The notes under the pieces are model-generated. The model was not told where the DNA came from. It saw only the letters and a program-made list of their open reading frames with translations, and ran no database searches. Shown in pieces: positions 711 through 37,390 of a stretch of 64,000 nt of DNA. This stretch comes from Paracyclopina nana. Lineage: Eukaryota; Arthropoda; Copepoda; Cyclopoida; Cyclopettidae. A program made the translations under genes and the position numbers. Within the stretch, counting starts at the first letter, position 1. Every line of letters starts with the position of its first letter. The stretch covers positions 3,720,001 to 3,784,000 of the forward strand of contig JAGUCH010000005.1 of NCBI GenBank assembly GCA_019096065.1, read 5' to 3'.

Positions 711-1055
711 ACAGTGGAGCAACACACCTTATAAAATACTTTATAATGTGTGTCACTTCATAAAGTAAAACGTCAGAGCTTTTATATATGTGTAGTTATA
801 TGAACTGAGACGAATTGGTAAACTGTACATGCGAAAATTGCTTTCCATCATATAAAATTAAAAGTTCTAGGGGTACTAAGTAATTTTTAGGCAAAAAATC
901 ATTCTAATCATTGTGTATCAAGTTACTAAAAGTTGAAAATAAGTATAAAAGAGTGATGGCATCTACTTAATACCAAAATAAGCAGATATCTCATGAACAG
1001 AGGATTCTAACTAGGTATCATTGAAATAATTCTTTATGCACTTTCTTTTAGGGTG

Positions 1056-1521
1056 CACAGTGGGTCAAAAAGCCGATTTTACGCGCACGAGAAATTACGT
1101 TAAATCGCAGATTTCCGATTTTAGCACCCATTTTCAGCTTCTAATTTGTAGGACTTCTAGGCTACCTAAAGAGCACAAATTAATGTTTATTGACAGATAA
1201 AGGTTCAATTTTGGTGAAGAAAACATAATTTTTGGGCAAAAGTTGATTTTGGCGAATTCAGTAGAACAGCAACTTTGCACAATTTGAGCAAAAATTGAAT
1301 CTCCCATAACTTTTGATTCCAAACGACTCCAATTGAGTGACCAAGTCAGGGAAGTCAAGCTTATAGCATAAATTGATAATCCACCAGAATTGGCTGCTCT
1401 TACTTGCTCTCCCGGGTGCCAGGATGGCATATTTTTAGCTTACCGCTAATAAGAAAAAGGTGCTACGTTGATTTCGCAACTTTTTTCCGTGCGCGTGAAA
1501 TCGGCCAATAAACCCACTGTG
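1056..1521. mobile_element. Transib-like MITE, 466 bp, with 5-bp target duplication
   Basis: The left end 1056-1089 and the reverse complement of the right end 1488-1521 match at 28 of 34 positions, including a perfect first ten bases (CACAGTGGGT) and the block CCGATTT.ACGCGCACG. GGGTG stands immediately outside both ends (1051-1055 and 1522-1526), as expected of a 5-bp GC-rich target-site duplication. Transib transposons have CACNNTG-type ends and 5-bp duplications, and the first seven bases equal the RAG recombination-signal heptamer CACAGTG. No transposase-like frame lies inside, so it is non-autonomous. Family assignment rests on ends and duplication length only. Confidence 0.75.
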
Positions 1522-1679
1522 GGGTGGATCGATTTTGTACATTTTTCTAAAAAATGAGCTGGTGAAAGAGCAGAAGTTTTTCAACTTCTTTTGTAGTGAT
1601 GGGCGCCGGAAATCGATTTAAACATTTGCAAACCTGACGAGCTACAAGAAAGACCTTTCAGAAAATATATACATATTGG

Positions 1680-1717
1680 GGTGGTCGAATTCATTTGGGT
1701 TGGGGTTGGCGACCACC
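1680..1717. repeat. Short hairpin upstream of DDB2
   Basis: GGTGGTCG at 1680-1687 is complementary to CGACCACC at 1710-1717, an 8-bp stem with a 22-nt loop, ending 112 bp before the DDB2 start codon. It could be a palindromic regulatory site or chance. Confidence 0.3.
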
Positions 1718-1829
1718 TTATTGCGTCTTGCACTCTCGCGGAATATATCACGCAACCTTGTATTTTGTTTACCTTTTACGTAACATCAGAAAAATCCGCG
1801 AAAACACCACGGCATGAAAAATAACTAAA

Positions 1830-3510
1830 ATGCCACCGAAAAGAAAATCAAAATTTGTTGTTGAATCCAGGGAGGATGAAGAGGACTTGACCAATTCGAA
1901 GCCGTCAACGTCATCTTCGAAATCCCAAAGTCTCACAAATAACAAGGAAAACTCAAGGCCTACTCGTAAGTGTGTTCAACAATCTGCAACAAGGAACAAA
2001 GCCAAGTTGGAGGAGAAGCAAGATGAGGATTCTGAAGATGATTTTGAGCCATCTCCGCCTAAAACAAAGAAAATTGCAAAAGTAGCCGACAAAAAGGTCA
2101 AGGAGAAGCCCAAGAAAGCTGATGGCAAAGATAAAACCAAGAAAGCTGAAGGCAAGAAAAAGGCCAAGAGGCCATTAGTGGAACCGGATCAGGACAACAA
2201 CGTTGAGGTCAAGGAGGATAAAAATAAGAACATTATTTTGGCTCTATCCAGCATGCAGAACGGTGGCCGTTGTCGTTCATCCTTTCAGCTTGAACAATGC
2301 GCTCGATCCGTGATAGTGAATCAGCTGAAAGAGTTCTCTGTGTTCAAGTCTGTGACTCCTTTTGACCGAAGAGTGACTGCGATTGCTTGGCATCCTCGTA
2401 AACCGACTCTATGTGCCGTTGGCTCAAAAGGAGGCGAAATAATTTTATGGAAATATGACAAAGACGAATTTGAAGGTATTGCTCAAGGAATGGGCCCTGG
2501 GGGATCCATTCAAAAAATTATGTTTGATCTCAACTCGCAGTCCAGAATCTACACTTGTTCCATCGATGGTACTTTCGAGGCCAAAGATCTGAACAGAACT
2601 GGTCCCACTAATACGGAAACGTTTCTCAACACTCAAAATTGGGACAAGTGGTACACCAGCTTCGATGTAGCGCCCGATGGAATGACACTAATTACCGGTA
2701 AATCGTCCATAACTTTAAAATTGGCCTTCTTATGAGGAATGCTGTGTTTCAGGTGAAAACTCTGGATTTGTGACTCTTTTGTCATCCAGAGGCGAGAAGA
2801 TCTGGAGGGACAAGTTGCACAAATCTAAGGTGACCAACATCCAGTTCAGCCCTCGTGAGCCTTGGCTCTTTGTTACTACCTCAACTGACAATTCAGTGAA
2901 AATTTGGGACATTCGTAACTTGACGGATTCAGCGGATCAAAGTCAACAGCGCAAGGACAAGTTTTTGCAGTCGTTGGTTCACAACAAGGCCGTCAATTCA
3001 GCCTATTTCAGCAATGTTGACGGAACAAGGCTGCTGACCACCGACCAGCATTCTCAAATTCGGGTGTACAAAGGACCTTATTGGGATTTGGAAAGGATCG
3101 TTCCTCATCCACATCGCCAATTTCAGCATTTAACGCCGATCAAAGCCACTTGGCATCCATTGGTCGACCTTGTTGTGGCAGGGAGATATCCAGACGAAAA
3201 TTTCCCTGGGTTCGTCGAGGGCGAGCTGAGAACGATTGATATCATGAATCCAGATTCAGGGGCTATGGAGTGCCAAATTAATCAGCCAGGCTTCAACAAG
3301 ATATCCAGCTTGAACTTGTTCAGCCCAAATGGAGAGGCCATGCTCTCCGGAATGGGGCAAACTGTTCTGATTTGGAAGCAAAAGCCTCAAACGGAAGTCA
3401 AGTTTGAGCAAAAGAGTACGAACGTTGAAAGTATTGTTGTCGAAGAGTGGCCCGGGCTAAAATCACAAGTTGCAGCCAAGCCGCGTGGAAAAAAGTCGAA
3501 AAAAGTCTGA
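1830..3510 (+). CDS. DDB2: DDB2, UV-damaged DNA-binding WD40 protein (2 exons)
   Basis: DDB2 is the lesion-recognition subunit of the UV-DDB complex. It docks on DDB1-CUL4 and starts global-genome nucleotide-excision repair in the nucleus. Exons are 1830-2697 and 2753-3510, joined by a 55-bp GT-AG intron in phase 1, giving 541 residues against about 427 in human. The extra length is a Lys/Glu/Ser-rich N-terminal tail (residues 1 to about 135) with several basic NLS-like clusters. The seven-blade propeller region aligns throughout from memory with the human protein. Key elements are present: the DWD/WDxR box WDIR at about 341-344, which binds DDB1, and the FQH hairpin at about 413-415 that wedges into the DNA minor groove, followed by LTPIKATWHP. 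The start was chosen as the first ATG of the open frame. A poly(A) signal follows 15 bases after the stop codon. Confidence 0.95.
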
Positions 3511-27849: not shown

Positions 27850-27855
27850 ATTAAA
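27850..27855 (+). terminator. Candidate poly(A) signal (ATTAAA) of the GPCR
   Basis: ATTAAA begins 51 bp after the GPCR stop and overlaps the reverse-strand stop codon of the EMAP-like gene (27851-27853). If used, the two transcripts overlap at their 3' ends. Confidence 0.5.
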
Positions 27856-30481
27856 CGTTTTTCCACTGAAGCAGGCTGACCTCGCCACCTCCAGATGACA
27901 CCAGTTGGCCTTCACCAGTAAAGGCCACATTTTTTACATGGTCTGCATGGCCTAACAGTTCGTGCGACTCGGCATCACTCTGACTGCATGGGTATTTATA
28001 CAGGCGCACTCGGCCAAAATCATCTCCAACGGCGAGGAGATCGTTGAAGGCCGCGCTATTGTTGATATCAGTTCCATCAGCAATTTGAGGCCAAATGCCG
28101 ATTGCCTCAAAGGCCAGAGTGCAATTTTGCGTTGCCCACGTCTTCTCCAAAATGGCGTCAATCATGGCCTCATCGCTGACCAGCGATCTGTCTTCCCAGA
28201 AGAGCAATTCATAATCCAGGGAATTCGATCTCAAATTGAGGCCGTCCTGAGTAAAGTCCAAGTGGGTCACGTGACTAGTGTGGCCTTTGAGTTTCTTATA
28301 CTCGAAGGCTTCTGGCAGCATGGAAGTGTCGTCGCATAAATAGATCTTTCTGTCTTTGGCGCCCACGGCCAATTTGAGGCCGTCCTCGGAAAAGGCCAAT
28401 GCCGAAATGGCCTCGCCACCTTTGGTGACTTTTATTCGCACGAGGCTGCGATCATCGACCTCAGTGTAATAAAGATGGCCGTCTTCAGATCCTGCGGCAA
28501 ATTTCGTCCCGTCCGCGCTCAACACGACACATGACAAGGCAGACCTCACGGTCTCGACCCATTTGGCCTTGTGGGCTACAGCATCCCACATAATGATTGT
28601 CTTGTCGAGGCCACATGTAATGAAATTGTCTCTCGCGCCAGACAGGCCTGTGATTTCCTCTCCATGGCCTTGGACAAGTATTTCAACTTCCATATCGACC
28701 TCGGTGGTTGCAGAGGACACAGTGAAGGTCACATCAGCTACGCAGCCTTTATTAGTGGCCACGTAGAGATGGTAATGTCTATCTCCTGTCTCTTCGTCCA
28801 CAACAAATCTCCAAGTGAGGATCTTTTTCACGCCACCCAACGCCTCTGGCAGGGTTGCACCCGCACCTATCAGTTCGTAGTTTTCGTTGAAGACCACCAG
28901 GGAATCATCATCCAATCCTCCACTCACGAAAGAGCCATCATCCATAACCCTGATATCTCCTACAGTTCCAGAATGAGCGCCCTTCAGCACTCGTACCACC
29001 TTCACACCCCTCCAAATCATGACATTTCCATCGGAGTCACCGGTCAAGACCTCCCCATTCTTGGCAAAGGCTGCACAAGTGACTAGTTTTGGCCTTGGAA
29101 TTTTTCTGGTGAACAAGCCTGTCCTACTTTGAAGCTCATCACCAATATTCCACATGGTGACATTACTCTTTCCGGTTGTCAGCAGTATGTTGGCAGGTTC
29201 CGGATAAAAGGCCACACTGAGAACAGCCTCACTGTGAGCTTGAACCTCTCCGACAAAATTGCCCTCGCCTTCCTCAAGGTCGTTCCACAGCCTCATCAAA
29301 GGCATCTGGTTGGAGTCGATAACAGCCAAAAAGGCCGTGGCCTTTGATTCTCCTTGGTACAAGGATGACCAGGCTAAGCACTTTATGCTGGTTTCAAATT
29401 GGTCCAAGCCAAGGGTATGGGATAGGGAGAGGTCCTCATAGTTCCAGATTTGGACGTGAGGCTTCTGAATTGTGGTCGTTTCGTGGCCTTCTGCTTGGCC
29501 AGAGGCCACGATGGGTAGGGTAGGATGCAATGACACAGCAGTGACAAGGTTGGTGTGGCCAGCATAAAACCTTTGTGAGTGAGACTCAATGTGATACATG
29601 ACAACAACAGCTCCAACGGAATAGATGAGCTCACCAGTAGGATATATGAAATCCATCGTTTCTCCATTCGGGCATCCATAGGCCCAGTCAATTTTGTAGT
29701 CAACTTCAGGTGCGTCAAGAAGGTTATCGGAGTCGTATGTGTCTCTGACATTTGGAGGAATTCTGATGACTATTGGACGACCTCGTATGTTCAGTTTTAT
29801 TGAGTCATGATCAATCCTCGATATGGCTCGTTTTGCGGTGTGAGCTCTAGTTCCTGCCTCTGACTTGAGCTCGTCAGGAACGCCCCCATTTTCTTCTCCT
29901 TCAGAAGCTTCCTCATGGTCATCTTCATAACCGTTTTCATCAGCTCCCTCATCAGTTGGTTCAGCCTCTGGTTCAGCTTCTGGTTCAACTTCAGCCTCAG
30001 GCTCAGCTTCTGGCTCAGCTTCCGGCTCAGTTTCCGGCTCAGCTTCTGGCTCAGCTTCTGGCTCAGCTTCTGGCTCAGCTTCTGGTTCAGCTTCTGGTTC
30101 AGCTTCTGGCTCAGCTTCTGGCTCAGCTTCAGGCTCAGCTTCAGGCTCAGCTTCAGGCTCAGCTTCAGGCTCAGCTTCAGGCTCAGCTTCAGGCTCAGCT
30201 TCAGGCTCAGCTTCAGGCTCAGCTTCAGGCTCAGCTTCTGCCTCAGCCTCTGGTTCAGGCTCAGCCTCTGGTTCAGGCTCAGCCTCTGGTTCAGGCTCAG
30301 CCTCTGGTTCAGGCTCAGCCTCTGGTTCAGGCTCAGCCTCAGGTTCAGCTTCTAGCTCAGGCTCGGCTTCTGGTTCTGGCTCGGCTTCTGGCTCAGGTGC
30401 AGCTGCAGGCAGTCTTCTTCGTGCCCCCCTTGGAAGCATGTAACCAGGGATGCCATTTTGTGTTGACGTTACATTTCCCAT
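27851..30481 (-). CDS. EMAP-like (EML) WD40 microtubule-associated protein, intronless (876 aa)
   Basis: EML proteins bind tubulin through a HELP motif and tandem WD40 propellers. The frame is open for 876 codons with no intron, unlike its neighbours. Residues 1-6 read MGNVTS, a fit to the N-myristoylation consensus (Gly2, Ser6). Residues about 28-175 are a repeat of Ala-Glu-Pro-Glu, followed by an acidic linker. The HELP-like segment starts near residue 230 ([12 protein letters not shown], later [12 protein letters not shown] and [17 protein letters not shown]). WD40 repeats continue to the end, with typical blocks such as [37 protein letters not shown] and [17 protein letters not shown]. 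The N-terminal trimerisation coiled coil of vertebrate EML1-4 is not seen. An upstream non-coding exon is possible. The missing introns suggest an old retrocopy or intron loss; the frame is intact and the gene looks functional. Confidence 0.9.
29970..30370 (-). repeat. 12-bp and 18-bp coding minisatellite (Ala-Glu-Pro-Glu)
   Basis: About 30000-30235 is built of 12-bp units (AGCTTCAGGCTC and close variants on the + strand). About 30240-30345 is built of 18-bp units (AGCCTCTGGTTCAGGCTC, about six copies). All units keep the minus-strand frame, so the array encodes AEPE and AEPEPE repeats. Homogeneity within each block suggests recent slippage or unequal exchange. Confidence 0.9.
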
Positions 30482-34000: not shown

Positions 34001-37000
34001 GACAAATCTCTTTGACCACACACACTGTGAAAGAAAGGCCAATTGCGCAGAGTAAACACAAAATAGAAAAGTACATGTGTGGATGATTGATGAAAAAAGG
34101 CTACAAGAGGAAAGTTTTGGTAGGAAAGGGTGTGTGCATAGCTTGATTTGTATGTGAGTGTGTATGCAGCAGAGGCCACACACAAATAATGGACATGCAA
34201 TCGATTTTTCAAAGCTCCAGACAGAAGTGTGTAACAGAAAGTATGCATTTTCATGGTAAACCTAGCTGTGATTTCCATCCTCAGTTTCACTCACTCCTGC
34301 ACACAACTCTAAGCAACCACTGTGACTTTTTCAAATGTCAAGACCGTGCAAAGAAAACGTGGCTCTGGTACAAGCTAGAGCAAATAAGTGCAAAAATATG
34401 TATAAGATTGCCTCTTTTGTAGTTAACGTTGGACGTAAATGTTTCATGGACTTTGGAACGCACATTAGCCAGATATGCCGGAGCACCTTTACGCACTGCT
34501 GAAACAACCAAAGCCAATCATGTGGGCATTCTTTGTAGGTAAAGTAAAGACGGCACCTTTTTTATACACTAGAGCTGACATGGCGGATACTCCTGCAGCT
34601 GCAGCTGCAGCACCAGCAACTATTTCCGCTGATGAAATTCTATCGTCATCAACTACAACATCCTCAGCTTCACCAGCATCCTCAGTTGAAGCCTCAGGCT
34701 CTTCAGGTGCTGCTTCAGCCTCCTCGGGAGCAGCTTCAGCCTCCTCGGGAGCAGCTTCAGCTTCCTCGGGAGCAGCTTCAGCTTCCTCGGGAGCCACTTC
34801 AGCCTCCTCGGGAGCTGCTTCAGCCTCCTCGGGAGCTGCTTCAGCCTCCTCGGGAGCAGCTTCAGCTTCCTCGGGAGCAGCCTCAGCTTCCTCGGGAGCA
34901 GCTTCAGCTTCCTCGGGAGCCGCTTCAGCCTCCTCGGGAGCCGCTTCAGCCTCCTTGGGAGCCGCTTCAGCCTCCTCGGTAGCCGCTTCAGCCTCCTCAG
35001 GGGTCTCTTCAGCTTCCTCGGGAGCTGCTTCTACCTCCTCGGGAGCCGCTTCTACCTCCTCAGGAGCCTCTTCTGCCTCCTCGGGAGCCACTTCAGACTC
35101 CTCGGGAGCAGCTTCAGCTTCCTCGGGAGCAGCTTCAGCTTCCTCGGGAGCCACTTCAGCCTCCTCGGGAGCTGCTTCAGCCTCCTCGGGAGCCGCTTCA
35201 GCCTCCTTGGGATCCGCTTCAGCCTCCTCGGGAGCCGCTTCAGCCTCCTCAGGGGTCGCTTCAGCTTCCTCGGGAGCCGCTTCTGCCTCCTCGGGAGCCG
35301 CTTCTACCTCCTCGGGAGCCTCTTCTGCCTCCTCGGGAGCCACTTCAGACTCCTCGGGAGCCATTTCAGGCTCCTCGGGAGCCACTTCTGCCTCCTCAGG
35401 AGCCTCTTCTGCCTCCTCAGGAACTGCTTCTGCCTCCTCAGGAGCTGCTTCAGCCTCTTCTGGAGCCGCTTCTGCCTCCTCGGGAGCTGCTTCAGCCTCC
35501 TCGGGAGCCGCTTCTGCCTCCTCGGGAGCCGCTTCAGCCTCTTCTGGAGCCGCTTCTGCCTCCTCGGTAGCTGCTTCAGCCTCTTCGGGAGCCGCTTCAG
35601 CCTCCTCAGGGGCCGCTTCAGCTTCCTCAGGAGCTGCCTCAACCTCCTCGGGAGCCGCTTCTGCCTCCTCGGGAGCCTCTTCTGCCTCCTCGGGAGCCGT
35701 TCCTGCCTCCTCTGGAGCCGCTTCTGCCCCCTCAGTTTCATCAGCAGGGGCTTCAGGTTCGACTTCTTCCTCAGCAGCAGCCTCAGGTGCTTCTGAAGAG
35801 GCCTCAGGCTCTTCTTCAAGAGCTGGTTCTGCCTCTACTTCTTCATCTTTGGCCTCAGGTTCTTCTGACACTGCCTCAGGCTCTTCCTCAGGAGCTGCTT
35901 CAGCCTCTGCTTCTGGTTCTTCTGCCTCTGCTTCTTCAGCAATGGCCTCAGGCTCTTCTCCAGCAGCCGCCTCAGGCTCTTCCTCAGGAGCTGCTTCTGC
36001 CTCTGCTTCTGCCTCTGCTTCTTCAGCAGCAGCCTCAGGCTCTTCTTCAGGAGCTGCTTCTTCAGTAGCAGCATCTGGTTCTTCTGAAGCGGCCTCAGGC
36101 TCTTCCCCATGAGCTGCTTCAAGCTCGGCTTCTTCAGCAGCAGTCTCGGGTTCTTCTGCATCTGCCTCATGCTCTTCTTCAGGAGCTGCTTCATCCTCTC
36201 CTTCTTCAGCGTCTGCTTCTTCAGGAGCTGCTTCAGCTTCCTCAGGAGCTGCTTCAGCTTCCTCAGGAGCTGCTTCGGCTTCTTCAGGAACTGCATCAGC
36301 TTCATCAGGAGCTATCTCTACAGCTTCTTCAGGAGCTGCCTCAACATCCTCGTCAGGAGCTGCTTCAACCTCGTCATTTGTGAGCTCAGCATCCTCAGGA
36401 GTTGCTTCAGCATCTTCAGTAGCAGCCTCTGGTTCCTCTAAAGCTTCTTCAGCTGCAGCATCCTCAGCCTCTTCTGGAGCGTCTTCAGTTTCCATTGGGG
36501 TGTCCTCAGGGGCCTCCTCTGCAGCCTCAGTAGCCCCATCGGCATCCAAAGGTGCTTCCTCAGCTTCCCCAGTGGCCTCTTCAGCATCCATTGGAGCCTC
36601 CTCAACTTCTGCAGAGGCCTCAGCAGGTAATTCTTCGCCTTCAGGGGCTGCTGAATCATCTGGGGCTTCTCCAGGATCATCAGCTGCAACATCGGCCTCA
36701 GTTTCCTCAGGTACACCTTCTATATCATCTAATGCAACGGCCTCCTCTTCGCCAGGATCTGGATCATCTTGAGCTGTCTCTGCTTCACTACCATCAATGC
36801 TTGGCTCTTTGTCTTCGCCCGTTCCACTGTCATGATCATCCATGATTGCCTTGGTTGGGCTAGGTGTTCCAGAAGAATTGATGTAGTCCAAAATTTGGCT
36901 AGTAGTAATCCCTACACTTTCTGACAAAGATCCATTTTCATTCTCAGGATCTGGATCATCATTATCTTCTCCACCATATTCTACGGTTACTGATTCGCTA

Positions 37001-37390
37001 TCACCTTGAATTGTATCACCATTTGCAATGGAAGGAGCTGCAACTCCATTCATTGGATCAATGTGATTGTCTTCGCCAGTTCCATTTTCGACGCCCTCAA
37101 CAAAATGCACTACCTTGGACTTATACTCTGCAATAGCATCGGGATCACCCAAGTTCATTTTAGAAGGAGACCGAATTGCTTGATACTTGGTCTGAATTTC
37201 TCCTTTGGAAGCCTCTATATATTCCAAGAGTGAAGCTGTTACGTCTTCTGTCGTTCTAGCTTCGTCCTCCTCTCCAAAATCACCATTAGTCAAGCTTTGA
37301 GCGTCCTTAATTTAAGTTACAATTTGAAACTACTTCAAGCTTTTAAAAGTATCGTGACAAGCAGAAACATACCTCATGATTTTCGGCCAT
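31008..37390 (-). CDS. Tau/MAP2/MAP4-like microtubule-associated protein (about 9 exons, ~1,347 aa)
   Basis: Members of this family bind and stabilise microtubules through C-terminal repeats. Exons on the minus strand are 37373-37390 (MAENHE), about 34557-37305, 33659-33937, 33425-33627, 33228-33300, 32697-32803, 32231-32443, 31769-31924 and 31008-31253, with consistent phases. The 2.7-kb second exon encodes a Glu/Ala/Pro-rich acidic projection domain. Exon 3 is Pro/Ser/Lys/Arg-rich, like the tau proline-rich region. Exons 4-7 carry five repeats ending in K/R-PGGG-type motifs: VQSKVGSLANASYKPGGG, a degenerate one (YTPKGG), VGSLENSSHKPGGG, SKVGSIENIKHKPGGG and VQSKVGSLDNVKHRPGGG. The donor of exon 2 is uncertain: phase-1 sites near 34555 and 34608 both fit, and I saw no signal that decides between them. 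A further 5' exon may exist (45508-45568). Confidence 0.9.
34690..36310 (-). repeat. 21-bp coding minisatellite in the MAP projection domain
   Basis: On the + strand the unit is close to GCTTCAGCCTCCTCGGGAGCC, 21 bp, repeated with substitutions from about 34695 to 35725, then in shorter irregular runs to about 36310. Read on the minus strand it gives a seven-residue E-E-A-E-A-A-P repeat. No unit breaks the frame. The opposite strand is also open over 545 codons purely because of this composition. Confidence 0.92.

Follow-up and report, generated by a model that had tools for sequence, protein, structure and literature searches.

Transib transposons are relatives of the enzyme that builds antibody genes, and the N in the names Transib N1, N2 and N3 presumably stands for non-autonomous. 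In Anopheles gambiae, these three Transib members possess RSS-like ends with 12/23-like spacers (in the portion of PMC8355894 available to us), and non-autonomous RAGL elements are in print as well (in the accessible part of PMC7204232), such that the miniature inverted-repeat family (MITE) described below is of an already known sort. Two Drosophila Transib elements, hopper and transib2, make 5-bp duplications at a CCANTGG target, as given in the available part of PMC3276498. The family that we describe appears to be new; non-autonomous Transib elements as such were already known.

We evaluated a window, meaning the whole 64-kb stretch analyzed (C5:3720001-3784000), of a host genome of 91,952,342 bases in 10 contigs. 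Near its start, positions 1056-1521 very probably represent a non-autonomous miniature element belonging to the Transib superfamily of transposons, whose parts and immediate surroundings are as follows (window positions):

1056..1521, + strand: element read as a non-autonomous Transib MITE, 466 bp (from genomic copies, ends and duplications)
1051..1055, no strand: left target site duplication GGGTG, 5 bp (from the letters; single in a paralogous empty site)
1522..1526, no strand: right target site duplication GGGTG, 5 bp (from the letters; single in a paralogous empty site)
1056..1094, + strand: left terminal inverted repeat, starting CACAGTGGGTCAAAAAGCCGATTT (from a repeat search and genomic end-pattern matches)
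1483..1521, - strand: right terminal inverted repeat, starting CACAGTGGGTTTATTGGCCGATTTCACGCGCAC on the - strand (from a repeat search and genomic end-pattern matches)
848..1719, no strand, broken by 1056-1526: older dispersed repeat that hosts the MITE insertion (from flank alignment)
1830..3510, + strand: neighboring gene DDB2, in open frames 1830-2735 and 2770-3510, a short gap separating the two

The preliminary description had reported 34-bp ends matching at 28 positions and flanked by GGGTG, and both observations are borne out, with 28/34 identity between 1056-1089 and 1488-1521, CACAGTGGGT starting both ends, and GGGTG at 1051-1055 and 1522-1526. The binomial chance that one fixed pair of 34-base ends would agree at 28/34 positions or more is 6.6e-12, and a repeat search of the window extends the arms to 39 nt at 79% identity. 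The element is non-coding, and its full end pattern is CACAGTGG[AG]TCAAAAAGCCGATTT. The CACAGTG heptamer marks each end of the window copy, as it does the majority sequence derived from 40 copies. A V(D)J signal was considered for these ends and rejected, the nonamer ACAAAAACC agreeing at 2/9 bases at each of four places (12 and 23 bases, both ends of the window copy). The location beside DDB2 was also correctly called: the element lies just upstream, and frame 2770-3510, the sole frame compared, matches the solved DDB2 4a08_B at 9.1e-61, with frame 1830-2735 probably part of the same gene given its position. Elsewhere in the window, positions 10-70 resemble part of a tRNA (GGTTCGATCCC) and are perhaps a tRNA-derived repeat; ARAGORN made zero tRNA calls in the window. 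Long open frames at 27851-30481 and 34475-37293 consist mostly of short acidic or serine-alanine repeats, and two long frames on opposite strands overlap at 34489-36112.

Searching the host genome by DNA returned at least 44 matches to the element, 40 of them full length including the window copy (40 of 430 candidates scored), and the counts given here for full-length copies exclude the four partial matches. All 40 cover the identical interval, revealing fixed ends and no copy whose ends lie elsewhere among those scored, in keeping with the element boundaries that had been proposed from the window alone. Copy lengths run from 464 to 470 bp with a mean pairwise divergence of 3.9% (gaps excluded), and the copies nearest to that in the window among the 40 compared are L009 and L010, at 2 substitutions each. 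Two pairs (L015/L016 and L023/L027) show zero differences and a third (L033/L039) differs by one gap alone, all three with unlike flanks; copies without any difference imply recent movement. Shorter patterns point to a wider family: the left end (21 bases, up to 3 mismatches) has 346 genomic matches versus 11 for a reversed control, and the right end of the window's subfamily (33 bases, up to 3 mismatches) has 112 versus 0. The 31 further left-end places that were fetched include members of a second subfamily, about 450-459 bp long, as well as a form of 225 bp. MITE right ends at C2:14416616, 14418326, 14420038 and 14421750 are spaced in tandem at intervals of 1,710-1,712 bases, apparently a tandem array that holds a MITE end.

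The duplications proved equally regular. The claim of a 5-bp target duplication holds in that 37 of the 40 copies possess a perfect one, where base composition predicts about 0.0013 per site, and duplications of 2, 3, 4, 6, 7 or 8 bp were found in 0/40; as a control, shifting the left five bases by 1 to 7 gave 1, 0, 0, 0, 0, 0 and 0 of 40. The three imperfect cases are L012 (1 mismatch), L018 (3) and L031 (3). Within the 37 perfect duplications, the successive positions favor C (27), A (22), a mixed base, T (29) and G (31), and the outer flank bases of the 40 copies are C in 18/40 on the left and G in 16/40 on the right. The resulting target, C-[C A N T G]-G, is a per-position preference with no strict rule, and agrees with the CCANTGG of hopper and transib2. 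Two copies appear to have reused related targets: L028, whose duplication is CAGTG, landed in a related element's CACAGTG heptamer, and L036 consists of two elements in tandem with one CACTG target common to both. The likeness of the heptamer to the target motif may be sufficient reason for such reuse.

An empty site was found as well. Queried with the right flank, the genome returned at least 40 matches including the window, many of them partial (40 of 49 candidates scored), and an uninterrupted relative of the 848..1719 repeat, lying beside the transposase locus L082 (about 2675-3047 in L082 numbering), carries one GGGTG. Aligned to this site, the joined window flanks score 410, the flanks in wrong order 226 and the MITE itself 31, with 80% identity over 350 columns between the site and the window flanks. 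This is one paralogous, non-allelic site, the one site examined, and together the duplications and the empty site document the outcome of integration.

Turning to the host's transposases, our starting probe was a 67-residue Transib-like sequence, which matched the solved transposase 6pqn (which we take to be Hztransib, from the moth Helicoverpa zea) at 1.7e-22 and hit 14 places in the host genome at E up to 1. Querying with the protein of L082, one of those places, then returned 16 matches (E up to 0.001), grouped into 13 loci, revealing at least 13 Transib transposase loci in the genome; the 14th probe place (C2:17290965, E 0.95) was absent from this second search and was dropped. Ten of the 13 loci have a stop-free main frame of 453-703 codons. 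One of these ten, the match at C1:9566911, runs on in another frame near its end. Of the remaining three, C3:6176112-6177606 and C1:10057929-10059399 are each split across two frames, and the C9:774695 locus is short, with a stop. A profile of seven transposase frames (six near full length and one fragment) matched 6pqn at 2.4e-67 (231 bits, profile positions 4-459), vertebrate RAG1 at 1.1e-4 at best, and RAG1L at 22.9 bits. Against Pfam RAG1, L085 passes (26.7 bits, cut-off 25) and L082 had no match; a genome search with PF12940 (RAG1) yielded 0 matches, but its control was equally silent. Residues D78 and D182 (L079 numbering) are invariant in all seven frames and an LSEEGSE block is present in all six longer ones, which we take to be the catalytic residues, as in RAG1 and Hztransib. 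Ratios of dN/dS were 0.09-0.17 in the 8 of 15 pairs where both rates were estimable, and with dS saturated in the other 7 and above 2 for most of the rest, these values say merely that the transposase proteins were kept.

Both ends could be located for seven of the 13 loci, giving these two-ended Transib elements:

C3:6175578-6178782: two-ended Transib element
C9:3657915-3661094: two-ended Transib element
C1:10056787-10059956: two-ended Transib element
C1:10234639-10237801: two-ended Transib element (L086)
C1:9565701-9568881: two-ended Transib element
C3:3749015-3752359: two-ended Transib element (C3 pair)
C3:10177911-10181251: two-ended Transib element (C3 pair)

These elements span 3,163-3,345 bp, each is flanked by a perfect 5-bp duplication (CATGG, CAGGC, CGGTG, CACAG, CTCTG, CCCTC and CACCG), and 13 of their 14 ends start with CACAGTGG, the exception being the 3' end of L086, which starts CACAGAGG. 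At four further loci the 3' end alone was seen, with CACAGAAGG at L079, L080 and L082 and CACAGTGGGCC at L095; that the first three have CACAGAAGG rather than CACAGTGG counts against the Transib reading of the MITE. No clear end was found in the 601 bases inspected at C9:774695. The C3 pair, with frames of 534 and 533 aa, matches without a difference over 353 bases at the 3' end, a count that takes in one flank base, though the whole lengths are 4 bases apart, and the elements at C9:3657915-3661094 and C1:9565701-9568881 have 95 identical 5'-end bases; since duplications are unlike within each pair, both pairs moved recently. As side observations, the related loci L079, L080 and L082 have a variant end, CACAGAAGGTTAAAA, in common; a AAAAACTCGC-like, nonamer-like block lies about 14 bases past the heptamer in most autonomous ends, at neither 12 nor 23.

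Seeing these features together, we file the element as Transib because of its duplication length, heptamer, target motif, and local Transib elements whose outer bases agree with its own, and the preliminary description's reading of a Transib-type non-autonomous element thereby gains support from the copies, the fixed ends and the resident transposases. Its broader grouping with RAG-related (ProtoRAG) transposons is borne out for Transib, the transposases being Transib rather than ProtoRAG by sequence. The serious rival is that the MITE belongs to a 5-bp-duplicating hAT group (hAT5) and bears CACAGTG ends by chance. Such hAT5 families with 5-bp duplications do exist (in the part of PMC12730594 available), but we consider this origin highly improbable, given that the insertion sites follow the target motif of two Drosophila Transib elements, and that in the seven local Transib elements the duplications are 5 bp long and 13 of 14 ends agree with the MITE in their outer 8 bases. 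The motif comparison was made with the table in the available part of PMC3276498, in which the sole hAT element, hobo, has 8 bp and GTNCGNAC. A search with PF05699 (hAT dimerization) gave 0 candidates in the host genome; its control was silent too, so it carries little weight. Descent from a ProtoRAG or RAG-like (RAG1L-RAG2L) transposon would also account for CAC-type ends and 5-bp duplications, which RAGL elements possess (PMC7204232, as far as accessible), yet it is extremely improbable: the host transposases reach 231 bits with 6pqn versus 22.9 with RAG1L, the seven two-ended elements span just the lengths given above with transposase frames identified in them, and protostome RAGL ends are CACTWMCAAAC-like in the accessible part of the same source. 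Nothing seen in the transposase frames examined would point to ProtoRAG.

With the Transib assignment preferred, the family was presumably moved by one of the Transib transposases now present or by a lost close relative. A source transposase elsewhere in the genome had been predicted, and this stands insofar as Transib transposases are there, several of them with open frames and both ends, but an element with the MITE's whole 34-39 bp end was not found among the 13 loci, and none of the 11 of 13 loci with at least one end read has a CACAGTGGNTC start. The best leads among transposase elements have the outer bases and some inner motifs in common with the MITE; beyond the first 8 bases, MITE versus autonomous ends give a mean z of 1.07, a weak likeness, where autonomous ends among themselves give 1.98, and 12 of the 52 MITE-autonomous end comparisons pass z 2, across several loci. 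We see about an even chance that the family is an orphan, its autonomous Transib partner with the same full ends having been lost or having decayed in the assembly. The missing full ends favor this, as does the recurrence at other genomic places of the end prefixes CACAGTGGGGCCAAT (L086 5') and CACAGTGGGGCAGAT (L083), a hint that in other families short relatives sharing the ends have been kept. A remnant of the partner may be L081 (C7:3723400-3724836), a 500-aa open Transib-like frame beyond which GACAGTGGGTTTA begins 119 bases later, equal to 12/13 outer bases of the MITE right end; on this 3' side the exact CACAGTGG is absent and only GACAGTGGGTTTA was seen. Allowing 1 mismatch at most, a scan for the 13-base end hit L081 once, 0/7 of the other transposase loci scanned, and the 64-kb window once, this being the MITE itself. 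Against an orphan family, identical MITE pairs require a transposase in the recent past, the L081 end beyond base 13 is unlike the MITE (8/47 positions), and no 5' end with flank TATGC was found near C7:3725000 (14 exact matches genome-wide). L081 is a candidate decayed element, former partner of the MITE, or domesticated transposase. Another long open frame adjoins it.

Alternatively, a Transib transposase now present, perhaps that of the C3 pair, may move the MITE family in cross-mobilization, which we regard as plausible while leaning slightly against it. As proposed, C3-pair recognition would use CACAGTGG plus GCC, ACTCGCA or ACGCGCA, GAAAAA and CGCGAAATC, and the C3 3' end and the MITE do have GCC, AC[TG]CGCA, GAAAAA and CGCGAAATC at like distances. 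This 3' end is the top autonomous scorer for three of the four MITE ends (z 3.2, 3.2 and 3.5; of 400 shuffles, 0.25, 1 and 0.5% scored as high), and the pair's frames are open, its 353-base identity coming with unlike duplications. However, the fourth MITE end (MITE2_L) does better with L080 and L082 and falls below z 2 versus the C3 pair, and the C3 5' end, which lay outside the 52-comparison test, is without the GAAAAA..CGCGAAATC block; with 12/52 comparisons passing z 2 over several loci, moreover, the C3 pair does not stand out strongly. The nine matches to the C3 3'-end pattern (4 in the pair, 5 at other transposase elements) are all at transposase elements, such that the pattern brought up no short relative with equally close ends. 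Rather doubtful, in our judgment, is a MITE family of hundreds of copies moved in trans through near heptamer-only recognition, by its outer 8-9 bases and a few motifs; if true, this would be a natural case of relaxed end use, and a possible forerunner of V(D)J signals.

Longer spans between MITE ends were also evaluated, after pairing by eye from the listed matches, e.g., C4:175456-178466 (3,011 bp) and C2:8919344-8922199 (2,856 bp). Searching with the L082 protein found no transposase within either span. A 500-base piece of the 3,011-bp span (L099, C4:176050-176549) is largely an approximately 150-base tandem repeat without similarity to the L082 transposase or the other loci compared, and represents either satellite growth inside a MITE or an insertion. 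Two further candidates for long elements, L074 and L077, were rejected: their common 2.1 kb includes flank before the end, indicating a MITE fragment inside another repeat.

Mechanistically, a Transib transposase from another locus would act in trans and bind both CACAGTGG ends, and CAC-dependent cleavage at the two ends followed by excision would be expected from relatives. Insertion with a 5-bp stagger at a C-CANTG-G-like target, and repair of that stagger, would then leave the GGGTG duplication. RAG and Hztransib cut by a flank-hairpin route, and by analogy the MITE may be cut in the same way.

The element itself is ordinary. The genome is of interest, with its at least 13 Transib loci (ten with a stop-free main frame), two pairs with identical end stretches, and large MITE families whose heptamer is the one found in vertebrate V(D)J signals. 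This makes it a compact system for asking how Transib transposases distinguish ends, a question that underlies how the 12/23 signals arose. Among known systems, ProtoRAG/RAGL elements possess a CAC-type heptamer and 5-bp duplications, as the MITE does, but differ in their RAG1L-RAG2L gene pair and, in the lancelet, a CACTATG heptamer (both from the available parts of PMC8289069 and PMC7204232). Compared with Anopheles gambiae Transib N1-N3 and their 12/23-like spacers, as known to us from the available part of their source, the MITE is without a nonamer at 12 or 23 bases. The host transposases align over nearly the whole chain of the DNA-mediated transposase 6pqn and retain the D, D and E blocks, whereas they are distant from it and the MITE encodes nothing. 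With hopper/transib2 of Drosophila melanogaster, the MITE, although just 466 bp and non-coding, has in common the 5-bp duplications and the palindromic CCANTGG (in the available part of PMC3276498), and it is by duplication and target motif that we liken it to these elements.
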